Position numbers and translations under genes: made by a program. DNA of 64,000 nucleotides from Planctomycetota bacterium (GTDB lineage: Bacteria > Planctomycetota > UBA1135). The notes under the pieces were generated by a model, which saw only the letters and a list, made by a program, of their open reading frames with translations, had not been told where the DNA came from and did not search any database. Shown piece by piece: positions 2,357-34,937 of this stretch (position 1 is its first letter; the number at the start of each line of letters is the position of its first letter). Where the stretch lies: positions 310,001 through 374,000 of the forward strand of contig SHNF01000002.1 of NCBI GenBank assembly GCA_004295085.1. The letters are read 5' to 3'.

Positions 2357-2650
2357 GTGGCCAAGGGTCGTACTCCCTCTTCTGCGCTTGCGCTGCGATC
2401 GATGCGCAAGCATTGCCAGCGTCTTGAGCGCTCGCTTCTCGCCGCGCGCGGAGAAGGGCCCGACCTCGGGCCGCTGAAAGCGCGCCAGAAGGCGTTGCGC
2501 GCCGAGATCCAGCAGTTGCGCGCGCAGATCCGCGAGCGCGAGCGCAACCCTTCGGCCGCGCTCGTGCCGGACGACCCGGTCCTCGCCTCCCTGCGCGATT
2601 CGATCCTGATGATGTCGAGGAGCCTTTCCATCCCCGTGAACCTGGACTGA
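2357..2650 (+). CDS. small basic coiled-coil protein, A-type (unnamed family)
   Basis: A 97-residue protein with a GTG start. The N-terminus MAKGRTPSSALAL is followed by a Lys/Arg-rich helix, a heptad-like coiled coil (ALRAEIQQLRAQIRERER) and a conserved tail LRDSILMMSRSLSIPVNLD. It is clearly paralogous to the gene at 34644-34937, which has the same length and the same MAKGRTPS start and xSLRDSI/LRDSI...PVxLD end. No signal peptide or membrane segment, so probably cytosolic; the basic charge permits nucleic-acid or ribosome binding, but that is conjecture. The next gene starts 3 bp after this stop, suggesting translational coupling. A TATAAT box sits upstream; no Shine-Dalgarno site is evident. 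Confidence 0.8.
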   Translation: MAKGRTPSSALALRSMRKHCQRLERSLLAARGEGPDLGPLKARQKALRAEIQQLRAQIRERERNPSAALVPDDPVLASLRDSILMMSRSLSIPVNLD

Positions 2651-2653
2651 GCC

Positions 2654-3061
2654 GTGGCGCGGGCCTCTTCCGCCGACAAGGTCCTGGCCGAAATGGTCCG
2701 GGACTACAAGCGTATGCGCCGGGGCGTGGTCCAGGGGCAGCGGGCGCAGTCCGACCCGGAGCTGGAGGCCATGCGCGCGCAGCTGCGCGCGCTCGAGGAG
2801 GAGCGGCGCGAGCTGCGCCGGCAGATCGCCGCGGCCAAGAAGTCCACGCTGCGCTCGCTGCGGCCTGAGGACGCCGAGGCGCTGGCGGCGATTCGCGGCG
2901 CCATCGACGCCGTGGCGGCCAAGCTGGAGCAGCTCGGATCTCCCGCGCCACCGGCGCAAGGAGCGGCGCCCCAGGCGCCCGCGGCTCTCTCCGCGGCGCA
3001 CCGCCGCCGGCGCCGCCGCCGCCTGGGACAGATCGTGACCTCCGCCGACGAGCTGCCGTAG
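2654..3061 (+). CDS. small basic coiled-coil protein, B-type (unnamed family)
   Basis: A 135-residue partner of the preceding gene, GTG start 3 bp after its stop. Residues about 5-22 (SSADKVLAEMVRDYKRMRR) align with the B-type paralog at 34310 (AADKVLAAMVKDYKRLRR). A coiled coil follows (LRALEEERRELRRQIAAAKK). Unlike its paralog it lacks the PVxLD tail and instead carries a Pro/Ala-rich linker and a run of seven Arg before LGQIVTSADELP. Function unknown; the pairing of one A-type with one B-type gene recurs 32 kb away, so the two products may form a hetero-oligomer. Confidence 0.75.
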   Translation: MARASSADKVLAEMVRDYKRMRRGVVQGQRAQSDPELEAMRAQLRALEEERRELRRQIAAAKKSTLRSLRPEDAEALAAIRGAIDAVAAKLEQLGSPAPPAQGAAPQAPAALSAAHRRRRRRRLGQIVTSADELP

Positions 3062-3181
3062 GGCAGTTTCCCGGGCGGGCGGCCCGGCCCGGGACGAGAG
3101 GAGCGATGAGGAGAACGGAGGCCGGTCTACGCTTTCCAGGGCGCCGGATTCCCGGCAGGCTTTCGCGGAGGTCGCAACGCC

Positions 3182-4792
3182 ATGAAACTTGCTCTGTCCC
3201 CGTCCGCTCGGGTCCTGCTCCTGCTCGCCGCCGCGCCATCCCTGGCCGGCGCGGCCCAGCACCCTCTGCTCCGGTTCGTGGGACAGCCCAACGAGCACCT
3301 CGGCATCGCCGTGGACGGGGCCGGCGACGCCGACGGCGACGGCGTCGCCGACCTGATCGTCGGCGCCACGGACCGAAACGGCGCCAGCACCAGCCCCGGC
3401 CGCGCGCGCCTCTATTCCGGCGCGGACGGCTCCCTCCTGCACACGTTCGTGGGCACGGACGCGGGCAGCGCCTTCGGGAACGCGGTCAGCGGGGCCGGCG
3501 ACATCGACCGCGACGGCTTTGACGATGTCATGGTCGGCGCGCGCTACGACGACGCGAACGGCATCTTCGCCGGCAGCGTGAACGTCTTCTCCGGCCGCGA
3601 CGGGAGCGTCCTGCATACGTTCTACGGCGATTCCGAGGGAGATCGCCTCGGAGCTGCGGTCGGTGCCGCGGGCGACGTCGACGCGGACGGCTGTCCGGAC
3701 GTGATCGCCGGAGCCATCTTCGACAGCAACAAGGGCTTCTGGTCGGGCAGCGCGCGCGTGTTCTCGGGGCGCAACGGCCGCATCCTGCACACATTTGACG
3801 GCGACTCCGCGTTCGACTTCCTCGGCACCGCGGTGGACGGCGCCGGCGACATCGATCAAGACGGCCACGACGACGTGATCGTCGGCGCCGACGGCGACGA
3901 CGACAACGCCTTCGATGCGGGCAGCGCCCGGGTCTACTCCGGGCGCGACGGCGCGGTGCTGTACACGTTCCATGGCGTGGGCGCCGAGGCCCACTTCGGC
4001 CACAGCGTGGGCGGCGCCGGCGACGTGAACGGAGACGGCATTCCGGACCTGGTCGTGGGCGCGCACGGCGCCGACGGCGCGCAGCCGGGCAGCGGCAAGG
4101 CCTACGTCTTCTCCGGCGCCGACGGCTCGCTCCTGCACGAGCTGTCCGGAGACGCCGGCGACGACGCCTTCGGCGTGAGCGTCAGCGGGGCCGGCGACGT
4201 GGACGGCGACGGGCTGGCCGACCTGATCGTCGGCGCCGACGGTGACGACGACTACGGCGCCCAGTGCGGCAGCGCGCGCGTGTTCTCCGGCGGCGACGGC
4301 TCCACCTTGTGCACGGTCTTCGGCGACTCCCTCGAGGATCACTTCGGCTTCTCCGTCGGCGGCGCGGGCGACGTGGACGGCGACGGGCTCGCCGACCTCA
4401 TCGCGGGCGCCTGGCTGGACGACGCCAACGGCGCCGACTCGGGCAGCGTGCTGGTGTTCTCCGGCTTCTTCGCGCGCCTGATCCTGAACCCGGACCCGCC
4501 GGCGGCGGGCCAGCCCGCGCTCCTGACCGCCGTCGGCGCGGAGCCGGGCGAGCGCATCGCCTTCGCCGCGTCCCTCGCGGGTGGCGGACCGACGCCCTCG
4601 TTCGCCGGGACCTTGCTGCTGACGCCGCCCGTGCTGGCGCTGGGGACGCGCGCTGCGGATCTCAACGGCATGGCGACCCTGGATCTCTCCGTCCCCTCGA
4701 CGCTCGCCGGCCGCGCCCTGTGGCTGCAGTCCGGCCGCAGCCGCGCCGGCACCTTCGACCTCTCCAGCCCCATCGCCACGGTCATCCGGTAG
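3182..4792 (+). CDS. exported FG-GAP (integrin-alpha-like) repeat protein
   Basis: A 536-residue exported protein with signal peptide MKLALSPSARVLLLLAAAPSLAGA. Seven FG-GAP repeats follow at about 65-residue spacing, each with a calcium-loop motif such as GDADGDGVADLIVGA, GDIDRDGFDDVMVGA or GDVDGDGLADLIVGA. Together they should fold as a seven-blade beta-propeller binding Ca2+. The last 100 residues are a separate beta module (from PAAGQPALLTAVGAEPGERIAF to LSSPIATVIR) resembling the ends of three nearby exported proteins. Probable surface adhesion or matrix protein; no enzymatic motif seen. Confidence 0.9.
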   Translation: MKLALSPSARVLLLLAAAPSLAGAAQHPLLRFVGQPNEHLGIAVDGAGDADGDGVADLIVGATDRNGASTSPGRARLYSGADGSLLHTFVGTDAGSAFGNAVSGAGDIDRDGFDDVMVGARYDDANGIFAGSVNVFSGRDGSVLHTFYGDSEGDRLGAAVGAAGDVDADGCPDVIAGAIFDSNKGFWSGSARVFSGRNGRILHTFDGDSAFDFLGTAVDGAGDIDQDGHDDVIVGADGDDDNAFDAGSARVYSGRDGAVLYTFHGVGAEAHFGHSVGGAGDVNGDGIPDLVVGAHGADGAQPGSGKAYVFSGADGSLLHELSGDAGDDAFGVSVSGAGDVDGDGLADLIVGADGDDDYGAQCGSARVFSGGDGSTLCTVFGDSLEDHFGFSVGGAGDVDGDGLADLIAGAWLDDANGADSGSVLVFSGFFARLILNPDPPAAGQPALLTAVGAEPGERIAFAASLAGGGPTPSFAGTLLLTPPVLALGTRAADLNGMATLDLSVPSTLAGRALWLQSGRSRAGTFDLSSPIATVIR

Positions 4793-4942
4793 CTGCTCGC
4801 CGGAAGGGCGGCTACGACCCTCGCCATCCTCGCCATCCCATCGCCCTCGCCAGCGTTCAGCTTCCACTCAGCTCGGTGGACTAGACTCCTCCGGCTCGAG
4901 ACCGGGCGTGTGCCCATCACGACCCGTGCCAAGGAGAAGCTC

Positions 4943-6082
4943 ATGTTCGTCTCCGCTGTCGCCCTTGCCTTCGCCTGGATCGGCGGCCATCCGCTGAGCG
5001 TGCAGGAGCCGGCCGAGTGGTCCAGGCTGCTCGACGCCAGCGCCTACACCCTCAGCCAGGCCATCGACAAGGGGCTCCGCGAGGCGGGCGAAGGCGTCCC
5101 GTTCCATGCCGAGCTGGAGCGGGACAAGGGGACGGTCGTCTTCTCGATCGACGTGGCCCAGGGCAGCCGCACCTGCAACGTGGTGCTCGACGCAAAAAGC
5201 GGCACGGTTCTGGAAAAGGAGCTGGAGGACGAGGACCACGCGGCCGAGGTCGGCGCCTGCCGCATCGGCCTGAAGGCCGCGATCGACGCCGCCGTGGACA
5301 AGAACCCCGGGCGGCCGGTGGAAGCGGAGCTTGTGCTGGTCCAGGGCAGGCCGGCAATCCGCGTGAAGGTGCTGGACGGCGGCAAGCTGGCGTCCGTGGA
5401 CATTGACGCTGCCATGGGCGAGGCGGCCGCCGCGCAGCCCGGGCCGGCGCCGGCGGAACCGGCCTACACCGACGTATTCCGCGTGGAAGCGGAAGAATGG
5501 ACGTCCACCGGCGCCAATCCTTACTTCATCCTGGAGCCGGGCTGGTTCCTGGTCCTGGAAGGCAAGGACGGGGACAAGGACGCACGCCTCACGATCACGG
5601 TGCTGGATGAGACGCGCCGGATCGCCGGCGTCGAGACACGCGTGGTCGAAGAGCGCGAAGAGGCCGGCGGCAGGCTGGTCGAGATCTCACGCAACTACTT
5701 CGCGATGTCGCGCCGGACCGGCAGCGTCTACTACTTCGGCGAGGACGTGGACATCTACAAGGACGGCACGGTCGTGAAGCACGAGGGCGCCTGGCTCGCA
5801 GGCGAGAACGGCGCGCGCTTCGGACTGATCATGCCGGGCACGCCGCTGCTCGGCGCCCGCTACTACCAGGAGATCGCGCCCGGAGTGGCCATGGACCGGG
5901 CGGAGATCGTGGGCCTGGCCGAGACCCTGGAGACACCCGCCGGCAGCTTCGAAGGTGTCCTCAAGATACGGGAATCGACCCCCCTGGAGCGGGGCACCGA
6001 GCACAAGTATCACGCCTGGGGCGTCGGCCTGGTCCGGGAAGAGGACCTGAAGCTGACGCGGTACGGGCGCGCCGGAGGCTAG
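4943..6082 (+). CDS. exported PepSY-domain protein
   Basis: Start set at ATG 4943 because AAGGAG (4931-4936) lies 6 nt upstream and the product begins with a signal peptide (MFVSAVALAFAWIGG); a GTG at 4910 is the alternative. The 379-residue protein has two PepSY-like units in its first half (about 25-85 and 90-150, e.g. TCNVVLDAKSGTVLEKELED), domains often found as inhibitors or sensors in secreted proteins. The second half (about 165-379) is a beta-rich domain of unknown function with YFGEDVDIYKDG and a closing HKYHAWGVGLVREEDLKL. A TAGACT hexamer at 4882-4887 could be the -10 box. Confidence 0.75.
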   Translation: MFVSAVALAFAWIGGHPLSVQEPAEWSRLLDASAYTLSQAIDKGLREAGEGVPFHAELERDKGTVVFSIDVAQGSRTCNVVLDAKSGTVLEKELEDEDHAAEVGACRIGLKAAIDAAVDKNPGRPVEAELVLVQGRPAIRVKVLDGGKLASVDIDAAMGEAAAAQPGPAPAEPAYTDVFRVEAEEWTSTGANPYFILEPGWFLVLEGKDGDKDARLTITVLDETRRIAGVETRVVEEREEAGGRLVEISRNYFAMSRRTGSVYYFGEDVDIYKDGTVVKHEGAWLAGENGARFGLIMPGTPLLGARYYQEIAPGVAMDRAEIVGLAETLETPAGSFEGVLKIRESTPLERGTEHKYHAWGVGLVREEDLKLTRYGRAGG

Positions 6083-6178
6083 GAGGCGGGCCTCAGGCTG
6101 TCAGAAACAGTGCCACAGCCCGCGAGGCGGGAGGTAAGGGCCGGAATACGCTGCAGAGCTCCGTACGGTCCGGAGAAT

Positions 6179-6550
6179 TCAGCTCACCAGAGCTGCACCC
6201 GGCAGCCGCCACTCGGCCTGCCGCTGCATGATGGCCGCGGCGGCGGCTTCCGCGTCGCGCTTGCGCATCCCTTCCAGGTCCAGCACGTTGCTGCCGCCCG
6301 AAGTCTCCAGGATCAGGCGGTCCCAGATGACGCCCTTGAGGCGGCGCACGGACGACACCTTGGCGAGCGACATCCGCTCTTCCTCCTTCACCCAGGGCAG
6401 GAGGAAGCTGCGCACGCGCACGGTACGGATGCTGTCCGCGCTGACTTCGAGCGTCTCCGGGAACAGGATGCGCGTGAGAGACCACTTCTGGAACAGCATG
6501 GCCCAGCGGCTGGAGCGCACGCGCAGGACCGACGGGACGGGAGCCACCAC
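6179..6550 (-). CDS. bacterial PH-like domain protein
   Basis: A 123-residue protein with a GTG start. The pattern (FPETLEVSADSIRTVRVR, then EEERMSLAKVSSVRR, then GVIWDRLILETSGG, and a final helix MRKRDAEAAAAAI) matches the bacterial pleckstrin-homology-like fold (bPH_2/DUF304 type), with alternating strands and a capping helix. There is no clear membrane segment. Ligand and partner are unknown. A TAGCAT hexamer ends 6 nt before the start codon, suggesting a leaderless transcript and supporting this start. Confidence 0.7.
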   Translation of the reverse strand: MVAPVPSVLRVRSSRWAMLFQKWSLTRILFPETLEVSADSIRTVRVRSFLLPWVKEEERMSLAKVSSVRRLKGVIWDRLILETSGGSNVLDLEGMRKRDAEAAAAAIMQRQAEWRLPGAALVS

Positions 6551-6556
6551 GGCGGG

Positions 6557-6562
6557 ATGCTA
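6557..6562 (-). promoter_or_regulatory. TAGCAT -10 element, 6 nt before a GTG start
   Basis: TANNNT-type hexamer read on the minus strand, separated from the GTG at 6550 by exactly six bases. The geometry is that of leaderless promoters. Confidence 0.5.
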
Positions 6563-6587
6563 GCGCAACCCGGCCGCGGAACGGGTC

Positions 6588-7982: not shown

Positions 7983-8049
7983 GGGAGGGCGGGACGGAGG
8001 GCCGGCCGGAGAGTCTACAGACCCCCGCCCCCCTCGGGGCCGGCACGGG

Positions 8050-10713: not shown

Positions 10714-10886
10714 GGATTTCGGCCGTGCAGTTCCGCGCCTGGCGCACACGACGCTGTTGCGCCCGCGAGCCTCGACAGGGACTGCGGCACCACTACCTGC
10801 GCAACAGCCGGCCCGAAGCCCTCAGCGAGCACTGCCGGCCACGCCCGCGCGCACCCCCCGGTGCCGGAAATCCCGGCCCTCGCTCG

Positions 10887-11978: not shown

Positions 11979-12022
11979 GCTGTCCAGTACGGTGGCGGCC
12001 GCATCCAGGTCTAGGGGAAGTT

Positions 12023-13351: not shown

Positions 13352-13472
13352 GGAAGGAAGAAGTTCTCGAGCTGGGAACAGGAGGCCCGTGCGGCTCCAC
13401 ACTACCAAAACGGTCAAGCGCGGTTTTTTCCAGCCCCCGCAGCCGGCTCCGGCATACAAGGACTTGTAGGCC

Positions 13473-14080: not shown

Positions 14081-14089
14081 GAGGTTGGA

Positions 14090-14404: not shown

Positions 14405-14405
14405 T

Positions 14406-22015: not shown

Positions 22016-22021
22016 CCGCTC

Positions 22022-23712: not shown

Positions 23713-23715
23713 GGA

Positions 23716-26700
23716 TCAGAGGCTATCGTGAGGAACAGTGGCCATCGGATTCGGCGCACCGCCCGCCTGCACCCTCTTCGCTCGACCTCCCTCGAAGATC
23801 CGGTACAGGGCGGGAAGCACCAGCAGCGTCAGGAGCGTGCTGGAGATCAGTCCGCCGATGACGACGGTGGCGAGCGGCTTTTGAACCTCCGCGCCCGTGC
23901 CTGTCGCCATGGCCATCGGCACGAAGCCGAGCGAAGCCACCATGGCCGTCATCAGGACGGGTCGGAGGCGGACCAAACCGCCATGAATTATGGCTTCGGA
24001 GAGCTCGCCACCACGAGCGCGCAGCTGGTTGATGAAGGTGACGAGCACGAGGCCATTGAGAACAGCGACCCCCGAAAGAGCGATGAACCCCACGGCAGCC
24101 GAAATCGAGAACGGCATGTCGCGGAGCCATAGTGCGACAATCCCTCCGGTAAGGCCCAGTGGCACTCCTGAGAAGACGAGCAGAGCCTGCCGGGCCGATT
24201 GGAACGTGGTGTACAGGAGCAGGAAGATCAGGACGAAACAGGCGGGAACGACGACCGACAATCGCTTGCGGGCGGCCACGAGGTTCTCGAACTGACCGCC
24301 CCATTCGAGCCACGAGCCGACCGGCAGATCGAGCGCGTTGACACGCGTCTGTGCTTCTGCGGCGAAGGAGCCGAGATCGCGGCCCCGCACATTGCACTGG
24401 ACCACGATCCGCCGCTTGCCGTTCTCGCGGCTGACCTGGTTCGGGCCCTCGGAGACCTCGATGGAAGCAACCGCACCGAGAGGTACGAAGCCTGGGCCGA
24501 TCCGGATGTGTCCCGCCGAGACCGGTGAAACGGTTTCGGCCGACGCTTCCGCGCCCGGGGCGAGAGGGATTGGCAGCTCCTCGAGCCGGTGGACGTCCTC
24601 GCGGACCGCATCCGGCAGGCGCACGACCAGGTCGAATCTGCGGTCTCCCTCGAACACGAGCCCGGCTTGTCGGCCGCCGATGGCCGCCGCGACGACGTCC
24701 TGCACGTCCGCGACGCCCAGGCCGATTCGCGAGATCGCGGCGCGATCGATCCGGATATTCATGGTCGGTAGTCCGGTTGTCTGTTCAACGCGGATGTCGG
24801 CCGCGCCAGGGATCCGGCGCAGGACTCCGGCGATCGTCTGCGCCGTGCGCTCCATGGCGGGGAAGTCGTCTCCATAGACTTTGATTGCGACGTCGCCGCG
24901 CACGCCGGCGATCAGCTCGTTGAAGCGCATCTGGATCGGCTGCGTGAACTCGTAGTTGTGGCCGGCAGCCTCCTGCACAGCCGCCTCCAGCCGCTGCTGC
25001 AGAGTGGACTTGGGAAGCTCCGGATCAGGCCACTCCTCGTGCGGCTTGAGAATGATGAAAGTGTCCGAAACGTTCGGCGGCATCGGATCCGAGGCCATTT
25101 CGGCCGTCCCCGTCTTCGAGAACACGAACGCGACCTCGGGAAAAGCACTGACGATTCTCTCGACTTCAAGCTGCATCTCCGTCGACTGTGCGATCCCGGT
25201 GCTCGGGATCCGCATCGCATGCATCGCGATGTCCTTCTCATCCAGGGTCGGAACGAACTCCTGCCCCAGATGATTGAAGAGCAGCAGTGCCCCTGCGAAA
25301 GCGGCGGCCGCTCCTCCAACGACCCACCACCGCCGCCGCACAGCCATCTCGAGGACCGGCTTGTAGCCGCGTTTGGCTGCGCGCACCAGGACGTTCTCCT
25401 TCTCCGCGACCCTGCCCCGGATCACGAGCGCGACCATAGCTGGAACAAAGGTCAGGGACAGGACGAAGGCGGCGACCAGCGCGAAGATCACGGTCATCGC
25501 CATCGGGCGGAACATCTTGCCTTCGATGCCGGTCAGCGCAAGGATCGGCAGGTAGACCGTGATGATGATGCACGCGCCGAACACGGCCGGGCCAAGGACC
25601 TGACGGCTCGCCTCGAGCACGGCTTCGCGTCTCTCTCCGGTCGCGAGCCGTCGACCCAGAGCGCGTTGCTTCTCGGCCAGGAGGCGCAGCGAGTTCTCGA
25701 CGATGATGACCGCGCCGTCGACGATCAGGCCGAAATCGATCGCGCCGAGGCTCATCAGGTTGCCGCTGATCCGGCTCTGGACCATCCCCGTGGCGGTCAA
25801 CAGCATGGACAGCGGGATCGCGAGAGCGGTCAGGATGGCTGCTCGGATGTTCCCGAGCAGAAGGAAGAGTACTGCGATGACGAGGATCGCACCCTCGAAG
25901 AGGTTCTTCTCGACCGTCTTCACAGTCGCGTCGACGAGTTTGGTCCGGTTGAGGACCGTCTTGACGTGGATGCCGGGCGGGAGCGATTTCGAGACCTCGC
26001 GCATCTTCGCGTCGACGGCGGAGGACACCGTCCGGCTGTTCGCGCCGATCAGCATGAGTGCCGTGCCGACGACGACCTCCGAGCCATCCTCGCTTGCGCT
26101 GCCGGTGCGCAACTCACCTCCGATCCCGACTTCGGCGACGTCGTGGACGTGGATCGGGACACCGTCCCGGGTCGCGATCACGATCGCCGACAGCTCGTCC
26201 AGGGTCTCGATCCGGCCCGCGGCACGAACGACATAGGCCTCGCCGAGGTGCTCGACGAATCCGGCTCCGGTGCTCACGTTGTTGCGCTCCAGGGCTTCGA
26301 TCACCTCGCGGAAGGTCAGGCCAAAGCCCACGAGCTTCTGCGGATCGGGCCGCACTTGGTACTGCTTGAGGTAGCCTCCGATGGAGTCGACTCCAGCAAC
26401 TTCGGGCACGCTCTTGAGCTGCGGGCGGATGATCCAGTCCTGCACCGTGCGCAGGTAGGCGGCGCGCTCGATCTCGGAGTGGAGTCGCTCGCCTTCCGCG
26501 GTGAGATAGCTGCCGTCCGATTGCCATCCAGGCTGTCCGTCCACGACGCCAGCCGCAGGGCTGCCAGGTTGGTCGAAGCCGACCGTCCACATGTAGATTT
26601 CACCCAATCCGGTCGCGATCGGCCCCATTGCCGGCTCGGCGCCGGGCGGCAAGCTCCCACGTACCTGCCCAAGCCGTTCGTTGACCTGATTGCGCGCGAA

Positions 26701-27012
26701 GTAGATGTCGACTTCGTCCTCGAAGATCGCCGTCACCTGTGAAAAGCCATTGCGCGAGAGCGACCTGGAGTACTCGAGACCCGGAATTCCCGCAAGGGAA
26801 GTCTCGACGAGGAAAGTCACCTGCTTCTCGATCTCCAGCGGCGAAAGCGCAGGCGCCACTGTGTTGATGTGGACCTGGTTGTTCGTGATGTCCGGCACAG
26901 CGTCGATGGGCAGATGCGACAGTGAGTACGCGCCCATGGCAGCCGCCATCAGCGTCAACACGATGATCAAGCCCGGGTGGTAGATCGAGAAGCGCAGGAT
27001 GCGTTGCAGCAC
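23716..27012 (-). CDS. czcA: HME-RND heavy-metal efflux pump (CzcA family), DGAV signature
   Basis: A 1,098-residue heavy-metal RND transporter. The TM4 signature is D426-FGLIVD432-GAVIIVE439-N, the DFGx3DGAVx3EN form typical of CzcA/CnrA/NccA-like pumps for Zn, Co, Cd or Ni. N-terminal SHLPIDAVPDITNNQVHINT and QPIQMRFNELIAGVRGDVAIKVYG are family hallmarks. It is longer than the second pump of the operon, with an extra periplasmic insertion near 145-180. It starts 3 bp after the P1B-ATPase stop. It may share the single outer-membrane factor with the other pump. Confidence 0.93.
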   Translation of the reverse strand: MLQRILRFSIYHPGLIIVLTLMAAAMGAYSLSHLPIDAVPDITNNQVHINTVAPALSPLEIEKQVTFLVETSLAGIPGLEYSRSLSRNGFSQVTAIFEDEVDIYFARNQVNERLGQVRGSLPPGAEPAMGPIATGLGEIYMWTVGFDQPGSPAAGVVDGQPGWQSDGSYLTAEGERLHSEIERAAYLRTVQDWIIRPQLKSVPEVAGVDSIGGYLKQYQVRPDPQKLVGFGLTFREVIEALERNNVSTGAGFVEHLGEAYVVRAAGRIETLDELSAIVIATRDGVPIHVHDVAEVGIGGELRTGSASEDGSEVVVGTALMLIGANSRTVSSAVDAKMREVSKSLPPGIHVKTVLNRTKLVDATVKTVEKNLFEGAILVIAVLFLLLGNIRAAILTALAIPLSMLLTATGMVQSRISGNLMSLGAIDFGLIVDGAVIIVENSLRLLAEKQRALGRRLATGERREAVLEASRQVLGPAVFGACIIITVYLPILALTGIEGKMFRPMAMTVIFALVAAFVLSLTFVPAMVALVIRGRVAEKENVLVRAAKRGYKPVLEMAVRRRWWVVGGAAAAFAGALLLFNHLGQEFVPTLDEKDIAMHAMRIPSTGIAQSTEMQLEVERIVSAFPEVAFVFSKTGTAEMASDPMPPNVSDTFIILKPHEEWPDPELPKSTLQQRLEAAVQEAAGHNYEFTQPIQMRFNELIAGVRGDVAIKVYGDDFPAMERTAQTIAGVLRRIPGAADIRVEQTTGLPTMNIRIDRAAISRIGLGVADVQDVVAAAIGGRQAGLVFEGDRRFDLVVRLPDAVREDVHRLEELPIPLAPGAEASAETVSPVSAGHIRIGPGFVPLGAVASIEVSEGPNQVSRENGKRRIVVQCNVRGRDLGSFAAEAQTRVNALDLPVGSWLEWGGQFENLVAARKRLSVVVPACFVLIFLLLYTTFQSARQALLVFSGVPLGLTGGIVALWLRDMPFSISAAVGFIALSGVAVLNGLVLVTFINQLRARGGELSEAIIHGGLVRLRPVLMTAMVASLGFVPMAMATGTGAEVQKPLATVVIGGLISSTLLTLLVLPALYRIFEGGRAKRVQAGGAPNPMATVPHDSL

Positions 27013-27015
27013 GGC

Positions 27016-29202
27016 TCAATCTTCGGAAGTGCGGCTGGGTTGGAGCAGCCGTAGCGCGTTGAGCACTACGAGCAGGGAGACGCCCATGTCGGCGGCGATC
27101 GCCCCCCACAGGGAGGCGAAGCCGGCGAACGCTAGGACGAAGAAAACGGCCTTGACCGCAAGAGACACGATCACATTCTGTCGGATCACGCGCACGGTTC
27201 GGCGTGAATGCCCGATCAGCCAGGACACGTGGGAGAGATCATCCCCCATCAGCGCCACGTCCGCGGTCTCGAGCGCCGCATCCGTCCCGGCGGCGCCCAT
27301 CGCGATGCCGAGGCTCGAGCGCGCGAGGGCCGGAGCGTCATTGACTCCGTCGCCGACCATCGCAACCCTTCCGTGCTCGGCAACGAGCTCCTCGATTGCC
27401 TGGACCTTGTCCTGCGGCAGCAACTCGGCCCTGACTTCGTCGATGCCGGCCTCCCTGGCGACCCTCTCCGCGGTCCCGCGGTTGTCTCCGGAGAGCATCA
27501 CAACCCGCTCGATTCCTGCTCGGCGCAACTTCTGGATCGACGCTGCGGCACCATCGCGCAGGCGATCGGCGAGCGCAACATAGCCGCAGATGTGCTCCTC
27601 TCGTCCAACGACGACCACGCTCGAGCCGGAGCTTGCCAGCGCCTCGAGCTCCCGATGAATCTCCTCACTTTCCTGTCCACGCTCGTCCAGGTAGCGGTGA
27701 GAGCCAAGCCAGTGGTCGACCCCTTCGATCCTCGCGTGCGCACCCTTGCCGGGGAGCATCTGGAAGTCGGTTGCCGGAACCGGTCGAATGCCCTTCTGTG
27801 CGGCATGCTCGACGATGGCGCGCGCAAGTGGATGAGTCGATCGCATCTCGACGGCAGCGGCGATCGCGAGCAGCTCCGCCTCGTCATGTCCCGCGCGTGG
27901 CACGACAGCGCTGACGCGGGGGCGGCCCTCTGTGAGCGTACCGGTCTTGTCGAGCGCGATTGCCACGAGTCGCGCCGGCGCCTCGAGATACGCGCCTCCC
28001 TTCACCAGGACGCCTTGCCGCGCCGCGGCGGCGAGCGCGGCGACGACGCTGACCGGGGTCGCGATCACCAGCGCGCAGGGACAGGCGATGACCAGCAGGA
28101 CCAGCGCCTGGTAGAACCACTTCTCCCACAATCCACCGAGGAGGGGAGGCACGACGGCCAGCAGCACGGCGGCCGCCATGACGGTTGGCGTGTAAATGCG
28201 TGCAAAGCGCTCAACCCACTGTTCGCTGGGTGAGCGACGCGCGTGCGCCTCTCCGACCATCTTCGCGATCTGTGAGAGAGTACTATCGGCAAACGGCTTG
28301 ACCGTCCTCACTTCGACGGCGCTTTCCTCGTTGACCGTACCGGCGAAAACCTCGCTGCCCTCTTCTTTCAGCACGGGAACGGACTCGCCAGTGATCGGCG
28401 CCTGGTTGACCGTTGTCCGCCCGCGCACGATCCGGCCGTCGAGGGGAAACTTCTCCCCAGGCTTCACGACCACGAAGGCGCCCACGGCCACGGAGGCTGC
28501 GTCGACGAGTTCCTCGTTGTTTCCGGGGCCGAGGACCCGGGCCCTGGACGGACTGAGTGTCATCAGCGCGGCGATCGCCTTGCGGGCGCGGCCGATGCTC
28601 CAGGACTCGAGGGCGAGCGATACCGCGAACAGGAAGGCAACGGTCGCCGCCTCGAACCACTCACCGATGCCAATTGCGCCGAGGATCGCGACGCACATGA
28701 GCAAGTTCATGTCCAGGCGCGCGCGCCGCAGCGCAAGCCAGGCCTTGGGCGCGACGAACCACGCGCCAAGGACGGTGGACGCAAGAAAAGCGCAGCGCGC
28801 GACGAGCGGCGCGCCGGTTCCTTCCTCGCCCCCAATCGCAGCGCGCCAGCCGGCCCCCGCCACGTGGGTGCTGAAGCCAAGGGCGAGCAGGAAACCGCTC
28901 GCGGCCGTCGTCCAAGCGCGCCGGAGGCGGCCGGAATCGGTCGACCCCTCCTCGGTGCCGCGCTCTTCCCACGGCTCGGCAGTCATGCCCGTGCGGGCGA
29001 CGGCAGCGAGCACGCCTTCCGGACTCGTTCCGCCTGGATCGAGTTCCACGGTCATCCTGCGCTGGAGCAGGTCGAAGTTGAGGGACTTTAGGCCATCGAG
29101 GGCCGCAAGCTGCTCGCGCAAGGTCGCGATCTCCTCCGCGCAGTCCATGCCGCGGATGAGGAAGGAGACGCTTCGCTCTGTCGGTGTGTTCTTGGCGCCC
29201 AT
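27016..29202 (-). CDS. P1B-type (Zn/Cd/Pb) metal-transporting ATPase
   Basis: A 728-residue inner-membrane ATPase that exports divalent soft metals to the periplasm. Motifs in order: HMA-like domain with GMDC21AEE, TGES (271-274), CPC (374-376) in the transmembrane metal site, DKTGT (418-422, phosphorylated Asp), HP (457-458), GDGVNDAP, and a C-terminal DMGVSLLVVLNALRLL helix with the Asp typical of the P1B-2 (ZntA/CadA) group. The N-terminal HMA keeps only one Cys of CxxC. ATG overlaps the adaptor stop by one base (TGATG), so it is translationally coupled. Confidence 0.93.
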   Translation of the reverse strand: MGAKNTPTERSVSFLIRGMDCAEEIATLREQLAALDGLKSLNFDLLQRRMTVELDPGGTSPEGVLAAVARTGMTAEPWEERGTEEGSTDSGRLRRAWTTAASGFLLALGFSTHVAGAGWRAAIGGEEGTGAPLVARCAFLASTVLGAWFVAPKAWLALRRARLDMNLLMCVAILGAIGIGEWFEAATVAFLFAVSLALESWSIGRARKAIAALMTLSPSRARVLGPGNNEELVDAASVAVGAFVVVKPGEKFPLDGRIVRGRTTVNQAPITGESVPVLKEEGSEVFAGTVNEESAVEVRTVKPFADSTLSQIAKMVGEAHARRSPSEQWVERFARIYTPTVMAAAVLLAVVPPLLGGLWEKWFYQALVLLVIACPCALVIATPVSVVAALAAAARQGVLVKGGAYLEAPARLVAIALDKTGTLTEGRPRVSAVVPRAGHDEAELLAIAAAVEMRSTHPLARAIVEHAAQKGIRPVPATDFQMLPGKGAHARIEGVDHWLGSHRYLDERGQESEEIHRELEALASSGSSVVVVGREEHICGYVALADRLRDGAAASIQKLRRAGIERVVMLSGDNRGTAERVAREAGIDEVRAELLPQDKVQAIEELVAEHGRVAMVGDGVNDAPALARSSLGIAMGAAGTDAALETADVALMGDDLSHVSWLIGHSRRTVRVIRQNVIVSLAVKAVFFVLAFAGFASLWGAIAADMGVSLLVVLNALRLLQPSRTSED

Positions 29203-30515
29203 CAGTGCTCGTGCTGGGCCGAGGCCTTGCCGTGCTCGGCCTTGAGGCGGAACGCGCCGGCGACGACGACGAATTCGCCTGGCTGCAGGCCAGCGAGTAC
29301 CGGAACGTGGACACCGACCGGAGTACCGATCTCAATCTCGTGCTTGCAGAACACGCTGCCTCCGGCCTCGACCGGAACGAAGACGGCCGGACGGCCTTCG
29401 ACGGTCAGGACGGCGCCGTCCGGAACAGCAAGTGCCAGAACTCCTGCGCCGAGCGCCGACTCGATTTCGACCTGGATAAACATTCCTGGCAACATCGTTT
29501 CATCCGGATTCGGCACCTCGACTCGCACTTCCGCGGTTCGCGTCGAGGCCTCGAGCACGGGGGAGATGGCAGCGACACGGCCCTCGCAGCCGCCGTGCTT
29601 CAGGGCTGGGACCTCGACCTTGGCAGGGGCGCCAACCGCGACCTCTGCGAGACGCGACTCACTGACTTCGGCGATGGCCCAGAGGATCGACAGGTCGCCA
29701 ATGACCAGCAGGCGGTCCTTGCCTGGATCGACGAGCTCACCGAGAGTCGGCGCAACCTCGACGACGCGGCCGGCAATCGGCGCCGTGATCGGGAAGCGTG
29801 GATCGACCTTGCCACTCCGCTCGAGCTCGTGAATCGAAGACTCGCTCATGCCCAATAGCAACAGACGATTCCTCGCCGCGGCCTCGATTGCACGCGCGAC
29901 CTCGAGATCGCGCTCGGCCTGACGCAACCCGGTCTCCAGGCGCTGGACATCGGATAGCGCGATCCCCTGGACCCGTTCAAAGAGCTCCTTGGCGCGCTCG
30001 TAGGAACTGCGCGCGATCTCGAGCGTCGGCCCGGCAGTGGAGGCCACCGTGCGCTTCTGGAGATAGTCGCTCTGGGCTTCGCCCAGCTCCGGGCTCTCCA
30101 CCACGAGCAGCACATCACCCTTCGCCACGCTGTCTCCGGACCGCACGCGCAGCTCGGCGATCCGCCCGGCGACCGCCGAGCCGATGCGCGCCACCGCCCC
30201 TTGGGGAAAGGCGAGATGACCGGGCGCAGAGATGGTAGGCGTAAGTGCCACCTCGCGCACGGGCGCAACCTCGATGCCGTAGCGGGCGAGCGCGTCCGTG
30301 CCGAGTTCGACGTCGTCATCGCAGTCACGGCGATCCTCTGCAACGTGGTGGGCGTCATCCTTCGGCTCGGCCTGCTCCGTGCCGGTTTCGTCGTGGTCCT
30401 CATGCTCTGCGGCACTCCCTCCGCTACAGCCAGCCCCGGCTGCACAGAGCAGCATGAGAAAGGCGGCCTGGACGGTGCCCCGGAAAGAAGATGTGCGGGT
30501 GCTGCTGGAGTTCAT
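29202..30515 (-). CDS. czcB: RND periplasmic adaptor (CzcB-like) lipoprotein, His/Asp-rich N-terminus
   Basis: A 437-residue membrane-fusion protein. The N-terminus has a hydrophobic segment ending in AAGAGC (probable lipoprotein) and then an acidic His-rich stretch (EHEDHDE, DDAHH, about 35-70) that could sequester divalent metal. The core has lipoyl half-motif RIGSAVAGRIAELRVRSGDSVAKGD, a coiled-coil hairpin (about 150-215), beta-barrel, and a final domain (KHEIEIGTPVGVHVPVLAGLQ). It ends in another His cluster (HGKASAQHEH). Starts 2 bp after the outer-membrane-factor stop. Likely partners the DGAV-type pump, by CzcCBA analogy. Confidence 0.9.
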   Translation of the reverse strand: MNSSSTRTSSFRGTVQAAFLMLLCAAGAGCSGGSAAEHEDHDETGTEQAEPKDDAHHVAEDRRDCDDDVELGTDALARYGIEVAPVREVALTPTISAPGHLAFPQGAVARIGSAVAGRIAELRVRSGDSVAKGDVLLVVESPELGEAQSDYLQKRTVASTAGPTLEIARSSYERAKELFERVQGIALSDVQRLETGLRQAERDLEVARAIEAAARNRLLLLGMSESSIHELERSGKVDPRFPITAPIAGRVVEVAPTLGELVDPGKDRLLVIGDLSILWAIAEVSESRLAEVAVGAPAKVEVPALKHGGCEGRVAAISPVLEASTRTAEVRVEVPNPDETMLPGMFIQVEIESALGAGVLALAVPDGAVLTVEGRPAVFVPVEAGGSVFCKHEIEIGTPVGVHVPVLAGLQPGEFVVVAGAFRLKAEHGKASAQHEH

Positions 30516-30517
30516 GG

Positions 30518-31909
30518 CTAAGGTTGCTGCGGAGTCCAGGTCAGGACGGAGCGAAGGACGGAAGGGCCGCCCACCGAGCGTTGGAGGCGGATGTGGGCCG
30601 AAGTCACCGCGCGCGAGACGTCGATCCGGCGCGCTTGGGATTGCTGCAGAGCCTGGTCAGCGAACAGCAGCGCCGTGGCATCCACCAACCCAAGCTGAAA
30701 GGCTTCCGCGATCTCGGCGCGCCGGCGCTCCTGCAAGGGGATCAGGTCATCCACGATGCGTTCCAGGCTCTCCTGCGCCCCGACGAAGGTCTCGAGGGCG
30801 CTTCGGACATCCTCGACCACGCCGCGGCGCGCTTGGGTCAGCCGGTGGCGTTGCTCGGAGGTCAGCGCCCGGGCTCGCTCTCGGCGCGCCTGGCCTGTAT
30901 CGAACAGTGGCAGCGGCGTCGAGATGCTTGGTCCCAAGGACCATTCGCCATCACGCTCTGCCTCGACTCCGGCGCTTGCTCCGTCCAGCGCCCGACCGCC
31001 CGCGAGCGCCTCCTCGTCCTCGCGTGCACGCAACTCCCACTCGATGGCCAGGAGCTCGGGCCGGTGCTCCAGGGCGGCGTCGATCCATGCTTGCTCCGTC
31101 GCGGGGATCGGCTCGAACGGGCTCCACGGATCCAGCGTCCACGTCGCGGACCCGGACGGCTCGCCGATCGCGCGGGACAGGGCGAAGCGCGCGACCCGGA
31201 GCTCGCGGCGGCGAAGGTCAAGCTCGACGCCGAGCAGCATCCGTTCGGCATCGAGCGCGGTGACATCGTGGCGCGTACCCTGGCCGAAGTCGAGCCGGGC
31301 CTGTGCCACCTCACGCAGGCGGTCGAGCACGGTGAGACGCTGCTCCAGTACAACGACCAGAGCTTCGAGGGCCTGGACTTCGGAGTAGCGCTGCTCGATT
31401 CCGGCCACAACGTCCAGTGCGGTCGAGAGAGCGTTGGCGACCTCCGCCTCCAGCCGATTGCCTGCCGCGCTGGCGCGGCGTGGTCGCTGTAGGATGGCGA
31501 GCAGATCCGCAGCGAGGCCCGCTTCGACATCCGGACTTCCTCCTCCCTCGGGAAACCGCAAGACGATGCTGAGAATCGGGTTGGGAAGCAGGGCGGCAAG
31601 TTCGGCATCGGCCTGCGCCGCTCGCACACGGGCCAGAGCAGCCTGCAGCTCCGGACTTGTCTCCACCCCGCGCCGCAGCGCACTGGCCACGGAAAGAGCA
31701 TCGGCCGGCCCGGCTCTGGCATCTATTGGACCACCCTCGCTGCGGAATGCTACTGCGTCCGCAAACTCCAACGAGCGGGCGATGGCACCCCCTGGATCCG
31801 GCTGTGGGTGTGCGACCGTGCATCCGGCCGCCAGGACGGCGACCAGAATCCCGCGGAGACAGCGCCTTTCCGGCGCCGCACTGAACGTAATCGTGGAAGC
31901 GAGAGTCAT
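30518..31909 (-). CDS. czcC: TolC-family outer-membrane efflux protein (CzcC-like)
   Basis: A 463-residue outer-membrane factor. Signal peptide or lipoprotein start GILVAVLAAGC. Long alpha-helical hairpins with internal duplication follow: SVASALRRGVETSPELQAALARVRAAQADAEL and AALEHRPELLAIEWELRAREDEEAL begin the two halves, as in TolC/CzcC. PLPLFDTGQARRERARA is the typical second-repeat motif. It forms the outer channel of the tripartite pumps; it is the only such gene in the operon. AAGGA lies 3 nt upstream of the ATG. Confidence 0.9.
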   Translation of the reverse strand: MTLASTITFSAAPERRCLRGILVAVLAAGCTVAHPQPDPGGAIARSLEFADAVAFRSEGGPIDARAGPADALSVASALRRGVETSPELQAALARVRAAQADAELAALLPNPILSIVLRFPEGGGSPDVEAGLAADLLAILQRPRRASAAGNRLEAEVANALSTALDVVAGIEQRYSEVQALEALVVVLEQRLTVLDRLREVAQARLDFGQGTRHDVTALDAERMLLGVELDLRRRELRVARFALSRAIGEPSGSATWTLDPWSPFEPIPATEQAWIDAALEHRPELLAIEWELRAREDEEALAGGRALDGASAGVEAERDGEWSLGPSISTPLPLFDTGQARRERARALTSEQRHRLTQARRGVVEDVRSALETFVGAQESLERIVDDLIPLQERRRAEIAEAFQLGLVDATALLFADQALQQSQARRIDVSRAVTSAHIRLQRSVGGPSVLRSVLTWTPQQP

Positions 31910-32017
31910 GGGTCCTTGCGTTTCGCGGAGAACACGTCGTCTCCGACACGGTCTCGAATTCGAAGGCGCACCGACGCCCAGTGGCGTGGCGCGACGTTCA
32001 CAATGCGAGATGCGCGA

Positions 32018-32437
32018 CTACGTCCGCAGGACCAGATTCGTTGCGGCGCGGCGCGGCCGAGGCGGGCCAAGGCAAGGCGCGACAGGACCGCGGAGATACG
32101 CCGCCGCCCCATCGTCAATCACGGAATATGGCACGCCTATATGCGACAGATCGACCTGGACGCGAGTAGGAACGCGCTTGGGATCACTGCCGCCAAGAAG
32201 CAAGTCCGAGCAAGTGCAGCACGAATCGCGATCCTCAGGACGCGAGCAGCAACCCGGCTCCAGTTCACGGACCGGCACGCAGTCGAGACAACTCGAGCTG
32301 GCGGACGCCTGCTCGATCGCAACATGGCCCTGCGATCCGATGCAGAGCACGAAATCCCGGGCCGGAGTGAGTCCAGTAGGTACACAGAACACAAGAACCG
32401 CCCTCGCGACCCAGGTGCCGATTCGTCCGTGGACCAT
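32018..32437 (-). CDS. Cys-rich small membrane-anchored protein leading the metal operon
   Basis: A 139-residue protein, first gene of the operon. One hydrophobic segment (about 8-24) serves as a signal or anchor. Then comes FVLCIGSQGHVAIE (C32, H38) and a Cys-rich region with C50-x2-C53, C63-C64 and C73-C74-x-C76. I have seen the C-x-G-x2-GH-x2-IE pattern in unnamed proteins beside metal-efflux genes, but know no function. Likely a periplasmic metal-responsive or redox protein (inference). A TAGCAT hexamer 6 nt before the ATG marks the probable operon promoter. Confidence 0.7.
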   Translation of the reverse strand: MVHGRIGTWVARAVLVFCVPTGLTPARDFVLCIGSQGHVAIEQASASSSCLDCVPVRELEPGCCSRPEDRDSCCTCSDLLLGGSDPKRVPTRVQVDLSHIGVPYSVIDDGAAAYLRGPVAPCLGPPRPRRAATNLVLRT

Positions 32438-32853
32438 GCACAGATGCTAGCACGCCAGCAGCGGAAGCGGAAGCCAGGCAGCGTGGTGAGAGCCAATTGA
32501 CCGGGTAGGCTTGCCCTTGAGTCGCCGGGCTGGCGATGTGCCCTGCCTGCGGCGCTTTGTTGACGGCATTGACCTCGTATTGCCTTGTCTGACAGTCCCT
32601 TAGAGCAATGCCCGTGGCGGACAGACCGGTCCGGCTGACTCGCTCTTGCACCGCCCGGCTGGCCTTACGGCATTGGTGTCATCCCACTCCTCCCCAAGGA
32701 GGTTCCGAAGAACCAGCAGAATGGCCATCCTCAGAGGCAGATGCCACGCACATACCACGCACGGTGACGGGCGAGCGCCGCCCGCCGCAATCCGCTCCGC
32801 TGAATTGTGCACCTGGGTGCGGCGCCCGCTGGTCTATCCTGGGAGGTGCATTC
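32438..32853. other. 416-bp divergent intergenic region at the metal-operon head
   Basis: Holds the minus-strand operon promoter at its left end and the plus-strand flavoprotein ribosome binding site (GGGAGGTG, 32841-32848) at its right end. Composition changes from the lower-GC operon to high GC around 32,740. No supported gene, repeat pair or integration site was seen. Confidence 0.5.
32444..32449 (-). promoter_or_regulatory. TAGCAT -10 element, probable promoter of the metal operon
   Basis: Read on the minus strand, TAGCAT ends six bases before ATG 32437, identical in sequence and spacing to the hexamer before the gene at 6550. TTCCGC (32472-32467, minus) sits 17 bp further upstream as a weak -35. 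No MerR-type spaced palindrome was recognised. Confidence 0.5.
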
Positions 32854-34254
32854 ATGGCCAAGGGCGCGACCTACGCGGCGGTCGTCATCGGCACCGGACA
32901 GGGCGGCGTGCCGCTGGCCAAGGCTCTGGCCGAGGCCGGCTGGAAGACCGCGATCGTCGAGAAGGAGGCGGTCGGCGGCACCTGCATCAACTACGGCTGC
33001 ACGCCCACCAAGACCATGGTGGCGAGCGCCCGGGTCGCCTACCTGGCCCGGCGCGCCGCGGACTACGGGGTGCGCACCGGCACGGTGGCGGTGGACCTCG
33101 CGCGCGTGCGCCGGCGCAAGCGCGCCCTCGTGCGCCAGTTCCGCGCCGGCAGCGAAGCCGGGCTGCGCTCCACGCGGCGCCTGCACCTCCTGTTCGGCAC
33201 GGCCAGCTTCGCGGGGCCGCACGAGCTCCGCGTCCGGTCCCGGGACGGCGCCGTGCGCCTGCTGCGCGCCCGGCACGTCTTCATCAACGTCGGCTGCCGC
33301 CCGCGTCCGGCGCGCGTTCCGGGGATCGAGAGCGTGCGCACGCTCGATTCCACGTCCATCATGGAGCTGGACCGCGCGCCGCGCCACCTCGCCATCCTCG
33401 GCGGCGGCTACGTCGGGATCGAGTTCGGCCAGATGTTCCGCCGCTTCGGCAGCGCGGTGACCATCCTCGATCGCGGCTCCCACCTGCTCGACCGCGAGGA
33501 CGAGGACGTCTCCGCGGGCGTGGAGGAGGTCCTGCGCGGAGACGGGGTCAAGCTCCTGCTGCGCGCCGAGGTGGACCGCATCGGCAGGACTGCCGGCGGC
33601 CGCATCGCGCTCGCGGCGCGCGCGGGGCGGCGGCGCCACCGCGTCGTGGCCGACCAGCTGCTGGTCGCGACCGGACGCGAGCCCAACACGCACGACCTGG
33701 ACGCGGAGGCCGCCGGCATCACCCTGGACGAGCGCGGCTTCGTGGTCGTCAACGACCGGCTGGAGACCTCCGTGCCGGGCGTCTATGCGCTGGGTGACGT
33801 CACCGGCGGTCCCGCGTTCACGCACATCTCCTGGGATGACCACCGCATCCTGGAAGCCAACCTCCTGCACGGCGGCGACGCCAGCACCAGGGGGCGCCTG
33901 GTGCCCTACACCGTGTACCTGGACCCGCAGCTCGGGCGGGTCGGCATGAGCGAGCGCGAGGCGCGCGCGTCCGGCCGCCGGGTCCGCGTCGCCACGCTGC
34001 CGATGGCGCACGTGGCGCGCGCTCTCGAGATGGACGAGACCCGCGGCTTCCTCAAGGTGATCGTGGACGCGCACGACGACCGGATCCTCGGCGCGGCCGT
34101 CCTCGGCGTCGAGGGCGGCGAGATCATGAGCGCGATCTCGATCGCGATGATGGCAGGCCTGCCTTACCCGCGCCTGCGCGACGGCATCTTCGCCCACCCG
34201 ACGCTGATGGAAGCCTTGAACAACCTGTTCTTCCACCTCACGGACGCGGAGTGA
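32854..34254 (+). CDS. mercuric-reductase-like FAD/NAD(P) disulfide oxidoreductase
   Basis: A 466-residue class-I pyridine nucleotide-disulfide oxidoreductase. FAD-binding VVIGTGQGGVPLAKALAEAG is followed by the redox-active disulfide C44-x4-C49 (GTCINYGCTPTK), NAD-binding LGGGYVGIEFGQMF, second FAD motif VPGVYALGDVTG, and the dimerisation domain with HPTLMEAL supplying the His-Glu pair. Unlike true MerA it has no N-terminal HMA domain and no C-terminal Cys pair (ends HLTDAE), so mercury reduction is doubtful. ATG 32854 has GGGAGGTG upstream. Proximity to the metal operon may be coincidental. Confidence 0.88.
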   Translation: MAKGATYAAVVIGTGQGGVPLAKALAEAGWKTAIVEKEAVGGTCINYGCTPTKTMVASARVAYLARRAADYGVRTGTVAVDLARVRRRKRALVRQFRAGSEAGLRSTRRLHLLFGTASFAGPHELRVRSRDGAVRLLRARHVFINVGCRPRPARVPGIESVRTLDSTSIMELDRAPRHLAILGGGYVGIEFGQMFRRFGSAVTILDRGSHLLDREDEDVSAGVEEVLRGDGVKLLLRAEVDRIGRTAGGRIALAARAGRRRHRVVADQLLVATGREPNTHDLDAEAAGITLDERGFVVVNDRLETSVPGVYALGDVTGGPAFTHISWDDHRILEANLLHGGDASTRGRLVPYTVYLDPQLGRVGMSEREARASGRRVRVATLPMAHVARALEMDETRGFLKVIVDAHDDRILGAAVLGVEGGEIMSAISIAMMAGLPYPRLRDGIFAHPTLMEALNNLFFHLTDAE

Positions 34255-34268
34255 GTCCCGGCGCGCAT

Positions 34269-34297
34269 TTGCACTTGCGCCGGCTCTCTGGTCTAAT
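34269..34297 (+). promoter_or_regulatory. promoter-like TTGCAC-17 bp-TCTAAT
   Basis: TTGCAC at 34269-34274 and TCTAAT at 34292-34297 are exactly 17 bp apart; the ATG at 34310 follows the -10 by 12 nt, so the leader would be very short. Confidence 0.5.
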
Positions 34298-34309
34298 CCC
34301 GAGCTCCGC

Positions 34310-34612
34310 ATGGCCAAGGGACGCGCCGCAGCAGCCGACAAAGTACTCGCCGCAATGGTGAAGGACTACAAGCGCCTCCGCCGCAGCCTGACCGAGGGCG
34401 GGGCCGTCGGCGACGACCCAGAGCTGGCCGTGCTGCTGCAGCGCAAGAAGGCGCTGGCGCAGGAGCTGCGGGAAGTGCGCCAGACGCTCGCGGCGCTCAA
34501 GAAATCGCCGCGGAAGAAGCTCGCCCCCGCGGACGAGAAGGCGCTGTCCGGACTGCGCGAGTCCATCCTGGCGCTGTCGAATAGCCTGGGCGTCCAAGTA
34601 CCCCTGGACTGA
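34310..34612 (+). CDS. small basic coiled-coil protein, B-type (unnamed family)
   Basis: A 100-residue protein. N-terminal AAADKVLAAMVKDYKRLRRSL aligns with the B-type paralog at 2654, while the tail LRESILALSNSLGVQVPLD matches the A-type tails, so it bridges the two subtypes and shows they are one family. The middle is a predicted coiled coil (LAQELREVRQTLAALKKS). No signal peptide. It has its own promoter-like sequence and no Shine-Dalgarno site. Confidence 0.8.
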   Translation: MAKGRAAAADKVLAAMVKDYKRLRRSLTEGGAVGDDPELAVLLQRKKALAQELREVRQTLAALKKSPRKKLAPADEKALSGLRESILALSNSLGVQVPLD

Positions 34613-34643
34613 CTGCGCCGGCCGCACCTCCTCTCCACCGCGC

Positions 34644-34937
34644 ATGGCAAAGGGCCGCACTCCCTCCACAGCACGGGCGCTGGCGTCCCTGGTCCGGAAC
34701 TACCAGAGGCTGCAGCGCAGTCTCCTGGACACGCGCGGCGAGACGCCGGAGGCGGCGGCGCTGCTGCAGCGCCGGCAGGAGATCCGGCGCGAGCTGCAGG
34801 AGCTCCGCGCCCGGATCCAGGCGGCCCGGAAGGGCGCGCCCGCGCGCAGCGCCGCCGACGATCCGGCGCTGGCGGCGCTGCGCGATTCGATCCTGCGCAT
34901 GTCCCGGATCCTGGCGCTTCCGGTGGACCTGGACTGA
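34644..34937 (+). CDS. small basic coiled-coil protein, A-type (unnamed family)
   Basis: A 97-residue paralog of the gene at 2357, same length, same MAKGRTPS start and same ending pattern (LRDSILRMSRILALPVDLD). The core RRQEIRRELQELRARIQAARK is a coiled coil. It lies 31 bp after the B-type partner with no promoter between, so it is probably cotranscribed. Order here is B then A, reversed relative to the locus at 2.4-3.1 kb. It converges on the S46 peptidase gene with 13 bp between stops. Confidence 0.8.
   Translation: MAKGRTPSTARALASLVRNYQRLQRSLLDTRGETPEAAALLQRRQEIRRELQELRARIQAARKGAPARSAADDPALAALRDSILRMSRILALPVDLD

Follow-up and report, generated by a model that had tools for sequence, protein, structure and literature searches.

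Which protein family is encoded by two pairs of small adjacent genes in a Planctomycetota genome (GTDB lineage UBA1135), and what might its members do? The four genes lie in a 64,000-nucleotide stretch (hereafter the window; positions 310,001 to 374,000 of the forward strand of contig SHNF01000002.1, GenBank assembly GCA_004295085.1). They are named A1 and B1 at the first locus, and B2 and A2 at the second (Table 1). We find that they are a real, well-observed orphan paralogous family, and a modest curiosity as it stands. Binding of nucleic acid by oligomers of these proteins is a tentative reading, to which we give about one chance in three.

Four homologous protein-coding genes

The initial annotation had described these open reading frames (ORFs) as a four-member family of small basic coiled-coil proteins, with one A-type and one B-type gene at each locus. 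Their coordinates and ends were confirmed, all on the forward strand, as was the gene order on that strand, A-B for the first locus and B-A for the second. All six pairs of proteins are similar, with identities of 29-54%: 52/97 for A1-A2, 41/89 for B1-B2, 43/97 for A2-B2, 40/97 for A1-B2, 28/79 for A2-B1 and 23/79 for A1-B1. Each pair was compared with 500 plain (composition-preserving) and 500 heptad-preserving shuffles, and in 6/6 pairs the real score exceeded the best of all shuffles. The weakest pair, A1-B1, scored 79 against best shuffles of 69 and 62 (z of 5.8 and 6.5). Since all pairs outscore both types of shuffle, a shared coiled-coil composition is an unlikely cause of the similarity. 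The MAFFT alignment of the four proteins over their common length has 14 invariant columns. The invariant arginines are Arg5, Arg22, Arg25, Arg55 and Arg80 (A2 numbering), and the C-terminal LD end is kept in three of the four members.

The four ORFs are protein-coding and mutually homologous. Between A1 and A2, codons differ at 37 first, 28 second and 45 third positions, and 26 of the 52 identical residues are encoded by different codons. In a six-frame comparison, for which A1/A2 was the sole pair used, the proposed frame is the best conserved (BLOSUM sum of 242, versus 67-144), with one antisense frame still identical at 42/97 positions. The frame is thus read as coding because third codon positions vary most and because it is the best conserved of the six. 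Estimates of dN/dS (NG86) were 0.42/0.88 for A1-A2, 0.51/0.78 for B1-B2, 0.52/0.81 for A2-B2, 0.64/0.85 for A1-B2, 0.95/1.01 for A1-B1 and 0.81/0.74 for A2-B1, giving ratios from about 0.5 (A1-A2) to about 1.1 (A2-B1). As these ratios are not low, constraint may be weak. They may also overstate relaxation, because the high GC content may compress dS, which is possibly close to saturation.

The sole internal branch of the tree separates A1 and A2 from B1 and B2, with a bootstrap of 100 both for the whole alignment and for the 95 gap-free columns. Two length differences, of two residues and of one residue, also set B1 and B2 apart from A1 and A2. The two types of the initial annotation therefore stand as subfamilies. 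They are not two separate kinds of protein: A and B form one family, and B2 retains an A-like C-terminus (QVPLD). The family would have arisen by gene duplication and now occupies two loci, whose standout DNA likeness is limited to the genes. An A-B pair was likely, though not provably, copied as a block, as a tree of four members and no outgroup has no root. The A-B and B-A orders on the same strand are not explained by one block that was copied or inverted. The simplest route to the swapped order would be a tandem A-B-A-B array from which the outer genes were lost at one locus.

The family is restricted to one genome among those searched

The four proteins had been assigned to no known family, and searches agree with this: Pfam, NCBIfam, PHROG, PADLOC and the PDB gave no convincing match for any of them. 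The best E-values were 0.0025 in NCBIfam, all matches being far under the cut-offs, and 0.014 in PADLOC; neither set of models assigned the proteins to anti-phage defence or toxin-antitoxin systems. The best match in the PDB by profile (E 0.0093) is a designed coiled coil. Among the best PHROG matches, which are weak, are those of A2 to a terminase small subunit (E 0.0053) and of B1 to a head scaffolding protein (E 0.0081). In the literature, no paper was found that joins any three of small basic coiled-coil protein, paralogous pair, heterodimer and Planctomycetota.

The genome itself (4.1 Mb, 90% complete, 0.26% contamination) contains only these four members: of 14 matches, four have E ≤ 0.01 and the next has E 0.17. 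A single-sequence search with A2 found matches at E ≤ 0.01 in 2/41 genomes, the own genome included here and in the counts that follow. With a profile of the four proteins, matches were found in 7/26 genomes of the family at E ≤ 0.01 (best outside the own genome, 2.8e-4), in 2/154 of the order at E ≤ 1e-3, in 1/154 of the class at E ≤ 1e-5, this being the own one, and in 2/392 of a phylum sample at E ≤ 1e-5. These genome sets overlap, the genus is represented by one genome among the 26, and metagenomes were outside the scope of the search. At most 32, 32 and 12 candidates were scored per genome in the order, class and phylum searches; with 12, all four own genes were still recovered in the phylum search. 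The remaining 25 family genomes, 153 of the order or class and 391 of the phylum sample yielded no credible relative. Nothing credible came from two pattern scans covering 84,980 species genomes or from three of viral contigs (IMG/VR), these patterns detecting close relatives only. By tblastn, B2 had no match in phages, and nothing credible was found in plasmids (best E of 0.8 for B2 and 0.3 for A1).

When profiles were built with one member left out, that member scored 53.6 to 96.4 bits, while the best unrelated frame reached 23.6 to 27.2 bits in a background of six-frame translations of the retrieved loci (L001-L049) minus those holding the four genes. Because held-out members score far above this background, the absence is meaningful at paralogue-like divergence. 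The family is thus a lineage-restricted orphan, with no homologue outside one genome among those searched.

The six matches in other genomes of the family (E ≤ 0.01) were rejected; each falls within a large open frame or spans one. Four of them, from four sister genomes (L011, L012, L014 and L015), are HGD-D 2-hydroxyglutaryl-CoA dehydratase proteins, whose repeated weak matches are probably a coincidence of helix composition. L013 is a PDZ/thioredoxin protein, and L010 crosses an in-frame stop into a histone-deacetylase frame. Seven matches from other genomes were checked by Pfam; the frames that contain them are 390 to 496 residues long, and 6/7 carry the domain of another family. The strongest result against a full absence is L018 (G266:C323), the sole match outside the own genome in the phylum search (29.4 bits, E 6.7e-6), within a 468-residue frame without Pfam match. 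Because the match spans a small part of a large frame, we read it as coiled-coil likeness. The L018 frame has a phage-like look, an unconfirmed impression. The single-sequence search with A2 gave L009 (E 9.9e-4), within a 755-residue frame, which the later profile search did not list.

Predicted structure and charge

The description of the proteins as small, basic and coiled-coil fits the predictions: all four have a pI between 10.1 and 11.5 and at most one aromatic residue, and they are probably helical with a central coiled coil. AlphaFold models of A2 and B2 were built from four-row alignments. The A2 model has helices at residues 8-30, 35-64 and 74-90 (pLDDT 69, pTM 0.34), and the B2 model at 5-31, 37-65 and 73-93 (pLDDT 74, pTM 0.31). 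The three helices, of which the long central one would form the coiled coil, are credible in these models; their packing is not.

Helix 1 is predicted to be strongly amphipathic (moment of 1.15-1.62). Its Lys and Arg residues lie on the polar face in 4/4 proteins, at angles above 90 degrees to the hydrophobic face. The exception is R24, with 48 degrees in B1 and 68 in B2. If the Leu/Ile of helix 2 are assigned to positions a and d, the invariant Glu50 falls on g and the invariant Arg55 on e, spaced as for a parallel g-e' salt bridge. The N-terminus reads KGRTPS in A1 and A2, and B2 keeps only KGR, so that KGR is found at residues 3-5 in these three members.

Charge scores for g-e' contacts, which rest on an assumed parallel helix-2 register and three positions, were 0 for A1:A1, -2 for A2:A2 and +1 for A1:A2; +3 for A1:B1, +1 for A1:B2, +2 for A2:B1 and 0 for A2:B2; and +2 for B1:B1, +3 for B1:B2 and +2 for B2:B2. 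Each A thus scores better with its neighbouring B than with itself (A1:B1 +3 versus 0, A2:B2 0 versus -2). If the register is right, these scores fit an A that gains from B more than B needs A, with no preference of B for the neighbouring A.

A possible role in nucleic acid binding and its alternatives

Our preferred reading is that these orphan paralogues are small basic proteins, probably of three helices, which may bind nucleic acid as oligomers, in the manner of nucleoid-associated proteins. Helix 2 (about residues 35-64) would pair subunits as a coiled coil, with Glu50 and Arg55 forming the g-e' salt bridge. The Lys/Arg face of helix 1, together with the N-terminal KGR tail of three of the four members, would hold a polyanion, DNA or RNA being the likeliest. 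Subunits able to mix would come from neighbouring A and B genes, and the resulting assembly would act like a small oligomeric nucleoid-associated protein, for which GapR and H-NS are working models.

Several points weigh against it. No DNA- or RNA-binding family model matched over its cut-off, and the genome does not lack a standard nucleoid protein, since it already has two HU-family genes. The pLDDT and pTM values of the models do not resolve the packing of the helices, and three Foldseek searches and one VIA search gave nothing usable, none of the Foldseek matches being below E 5. The charge segregation of helix 1 is partly built in, because the moment was computed including Lys and Arg, and its angles are reported without a shuffled control. 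B1 has no KGR tail. B homodimers score no worse than the mixed pair at the second locus, and the cross-locus pairs B1:B2 (+3) and A2:B1 (+2) equal or beat the neighbours, which weakens the idea of neighbour pairs. Finally, the coiled-coil profile also attracts weak hits from unrelated proteins.

The initial annotation had gone further and proposed an obligate A/B pair, perhaps a nucleic-acid- or ribosome-binding hetero-oligomer. We looked for A/B pairs in related genomes and found no other genome with these genes. An obligate pair is therefore not supported and goes beyond the evidence, the two loci of one genome representing a single history. Binding of nucleic acid or of ribosomes is suggested by the charge of the proteins, and for ribosomes the proposal reaches beyond the evidence. 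A ribosomal or otherwise core role would be disfavoured, since sister genera are without these genes. The Arg7 run of B1, also pointed out in the initial annotation, is present and encoded CGC CGC CGG CGC CGC CGC CGC. It is weak evidence of adaptation, because it lies within a GC-rich triplet tract and an unrelated SprT-like neighbour has an Arg8 run. An extended version of the preferred reading, which we consider improbable, would be a lineage-specific class of chromatin- or RNA-organising proteins. These would be mixed A/B coiled-coil oligomers with a KGR hook and a helix-1 grip, the two sets being tuned to different conditions and B1 adding its Arg-rich tail.

The likeliest alternative, though itself unlikely, is that these are adaptor, chaperone-like or granule-coat proteins whose basic amphipathic helix binds an acidic protein or a membrane surface rather than nucleic acid. 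Helical coiled-coil proteins commonly act as adaptors, chaperones or coats, and the strong amphipathicity of helix 1 and the lack of a nucleic-acid-binding model over cut-off both fit such a role. However, granule coats and secretion chaperones do not usually combine a pI of 10-11.5 with invariant Arg residues, and no family model of such proteins matches either.

We hold it unlikely that the genes came from a mobile element or phage of an unsampled source, as remnants or passengers that evolve fast and perhaps have a counter-defence or regulatory role. This would account for their presence in one genome only, in two unrelated contexts and not beside the relatives of the S46 peptidase gene in sister genomes, as well as for the weak PHROG hits to phage proteins. 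However, the window has no tRNA, the standout likeness between the loci ends with the genes, and no relative was found in IMG/VR by pattern or in phages and plasmids by tblastn at a credible E. The 2 kb bins that contain the genes have a GC content of 0.717 and 0.706, like their surroundings.

Quite unlikely, in our view, is that the four are duplicated, newly born ORFs of trivial function under weak constraint, to which the orphan status and the dN/dS ratios would point. Against this, four intact copies persist at 29-54% identity with 14 invariant columns, third-position differences are in excess, and three members keep the C-terminal LD end. A secreted heterodimer of helical hairpins of the WXG100 (EsxA/EsxB) type, as the length of about 100 residues, the helices and the adjacent paralogous pairs could suggest, is already disfavoured and very improbable, as the proteins are very basic and without Trp and no WXG100 model matched in Pfam at E up to 10.

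Genomic context

The neighbours of both loci show nothing that points to a shared pathway (Table 1). A1-B1 is flanked by the SprT-like gene and by an FG-GAP-like gene, the latter named by reading, as NCBIfam gave no match. The Arg8 run of the SprT-like protein is encoded mostly by AGG codons, two genes before the CGC/CGG-coded Arg7 of B1. SprT matches were found in 6/25 sister genomes and are weak (29-36% identity). Close relatives of the S46 peptidase were found in 3/25 (57-61% identity), where about 40 kb in G007, a 28 kb contig in G005 and a 3,850-base contig in G014 contain other neighbours. When 35 other frames of the window were compared by tblastn with these surroundings, none matched except the FG-GAP-like one, in G007.

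Each pair may form its own short operon. TATAAT has one match on both strands of the window, versus a mean of 0.40 in shuffles, at least one copy being present in 34/100 of these. No promoter-like site was found by a two-hexamer scan of positions 1600-3400 or by a consensus scan of 34000-35200, in which the second hexamer must have A at position 2. Mobile-element signs were looked for in the window, which has no tRNA and no Rfam match at the gathering score.

Table 1. Positions of the four genes, of promoter-like sites and of neighbouring genes in the window.
Feature	Position	Strand	Remarks
SprT-like protein	1726..2268	+	Neighbour outside the family; Arg8 run near end; start chosen by us
Candidate -10 box, TATAAT	2315..2320	+	36 nt upstream of A1 start; sole exact copy in the 64 kb window
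A1	2357..2650	+	97 aa; GTG start; pI 11.3
B1	2654..3061	+	135 aa; GTG start; 3 nt past A1 stop; C-terminal extension with Arg7
Pyridine nucleotide-disulphide oxidoreductase	32848..34254	+	Neighbour upstream of B2; start chosen by us
Promoter-like TTGCAC-17-TCTAAT	34269..34297	+	Ends 12 nt before B2 start; read by eye
B2	34310..34612	+	100 aa; ATG start; A-like C-terminus; shortest tree branch of the four
A2	34644..34937	+	97 aa; ATG start; pI 11.5
S46 peptidase	34951..36663	-	Neighbour convergent with A2

Between the two loci, positions 23716-31909 of the reverse strand encode a CusA/CzcA-type RND pump, a heavy-metal-type P-ATPase, a CusB/HlyD-like adaptor and an outer membrane efflux protein, likely a heavy-metal efflux island. 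The GC content is 65-69% over 20-32 kb, versus 69-74% in the other 2 kb bins of the window. Downstream, positions 36699-41351 of the forward strand hold a single 1550-aa frame with PVC-type haem-binding CxxCH regions, possibly a fusion, whose first part we take to read like a neutral ceramidase.

Relation to known systems

Orphan genes are common and mostly unstudied. Two subfamilies at two loci in a single lineage offer a compact case of how a new small protein gains partners and, should the A/B family indeed bind DNA, it would represent one more origin of small coiled-coil nucleoid proteins.

GapR, as described in PMC7373187, is a nucleoid-associated protein of 89 residues with a coiled-coil helix H1, a DNA-binding helix H2 and a tetramerising helix H3. 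This family (PF10073, known from Caulobacter) resembles the A/B proteins in its length of about 90-100 aa, its three helices, which for A/B are predicted, and its oligomerisation by a coiled coil, which for A/B is a proposal. According to the same source, GapR binds DNA by a helix; that the A/B family does so is a guess. The order also differs, the coil of GapR being its first helix and the DNA-binding helix its second, whereas in the A/B proteins helix 1 bears the basic face and helix 2 the coil. None of the four proteins hit PF10073 in Pfam at E up to 10, and in the own genome the sole weak place of this model (E 0.056, below cut-off) lies elsewhere, with none at the four genes.

In H-NS, the QGR motif continues as QGRTPA. 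H-NS (PF00816) and the A/B family share a coiled coil, predicted in the latter, and a short basic motif containing GR, which is KGRTPS in A1 and A2. The QGR motif is stated, in PMC6424460, to enter the DNA minor groove. It lies in a loop of the DNA-binding domain, whereas the motif of the A/B proteins is in an N-terminal tail. A QGR domain behind an N-terminal coiled coil, as in H-NS, was not found, the C-terminal part being predicted as helix in A2 and B2. None of the four hit PF00816 in the Pfam search at E up to 10, in which HMMER filters drop many weak hits, and in the own genome this model has ten weak places, none at the four genes and none over cut-off.

The WXG100 proteins EsxA and EsxB are of about 100 aa, helical and encoded by tandem paralogues, all of which the A/B proteins share, the helices by prediction. 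The latter are without the WXG motif, because none of the four sequences contains Trp, and differ further in their pI of 10-11.5 and in having no Pfam hit. A further comparison is with taxonomically restricted, or orphan, genes, a known category according to PMC1824705. Like these, the A/B genes are short, with no homologues found outside one genome; unlike typical orphan genes, they already number four, arranged as two pairs and clearly divided into subfamilies.

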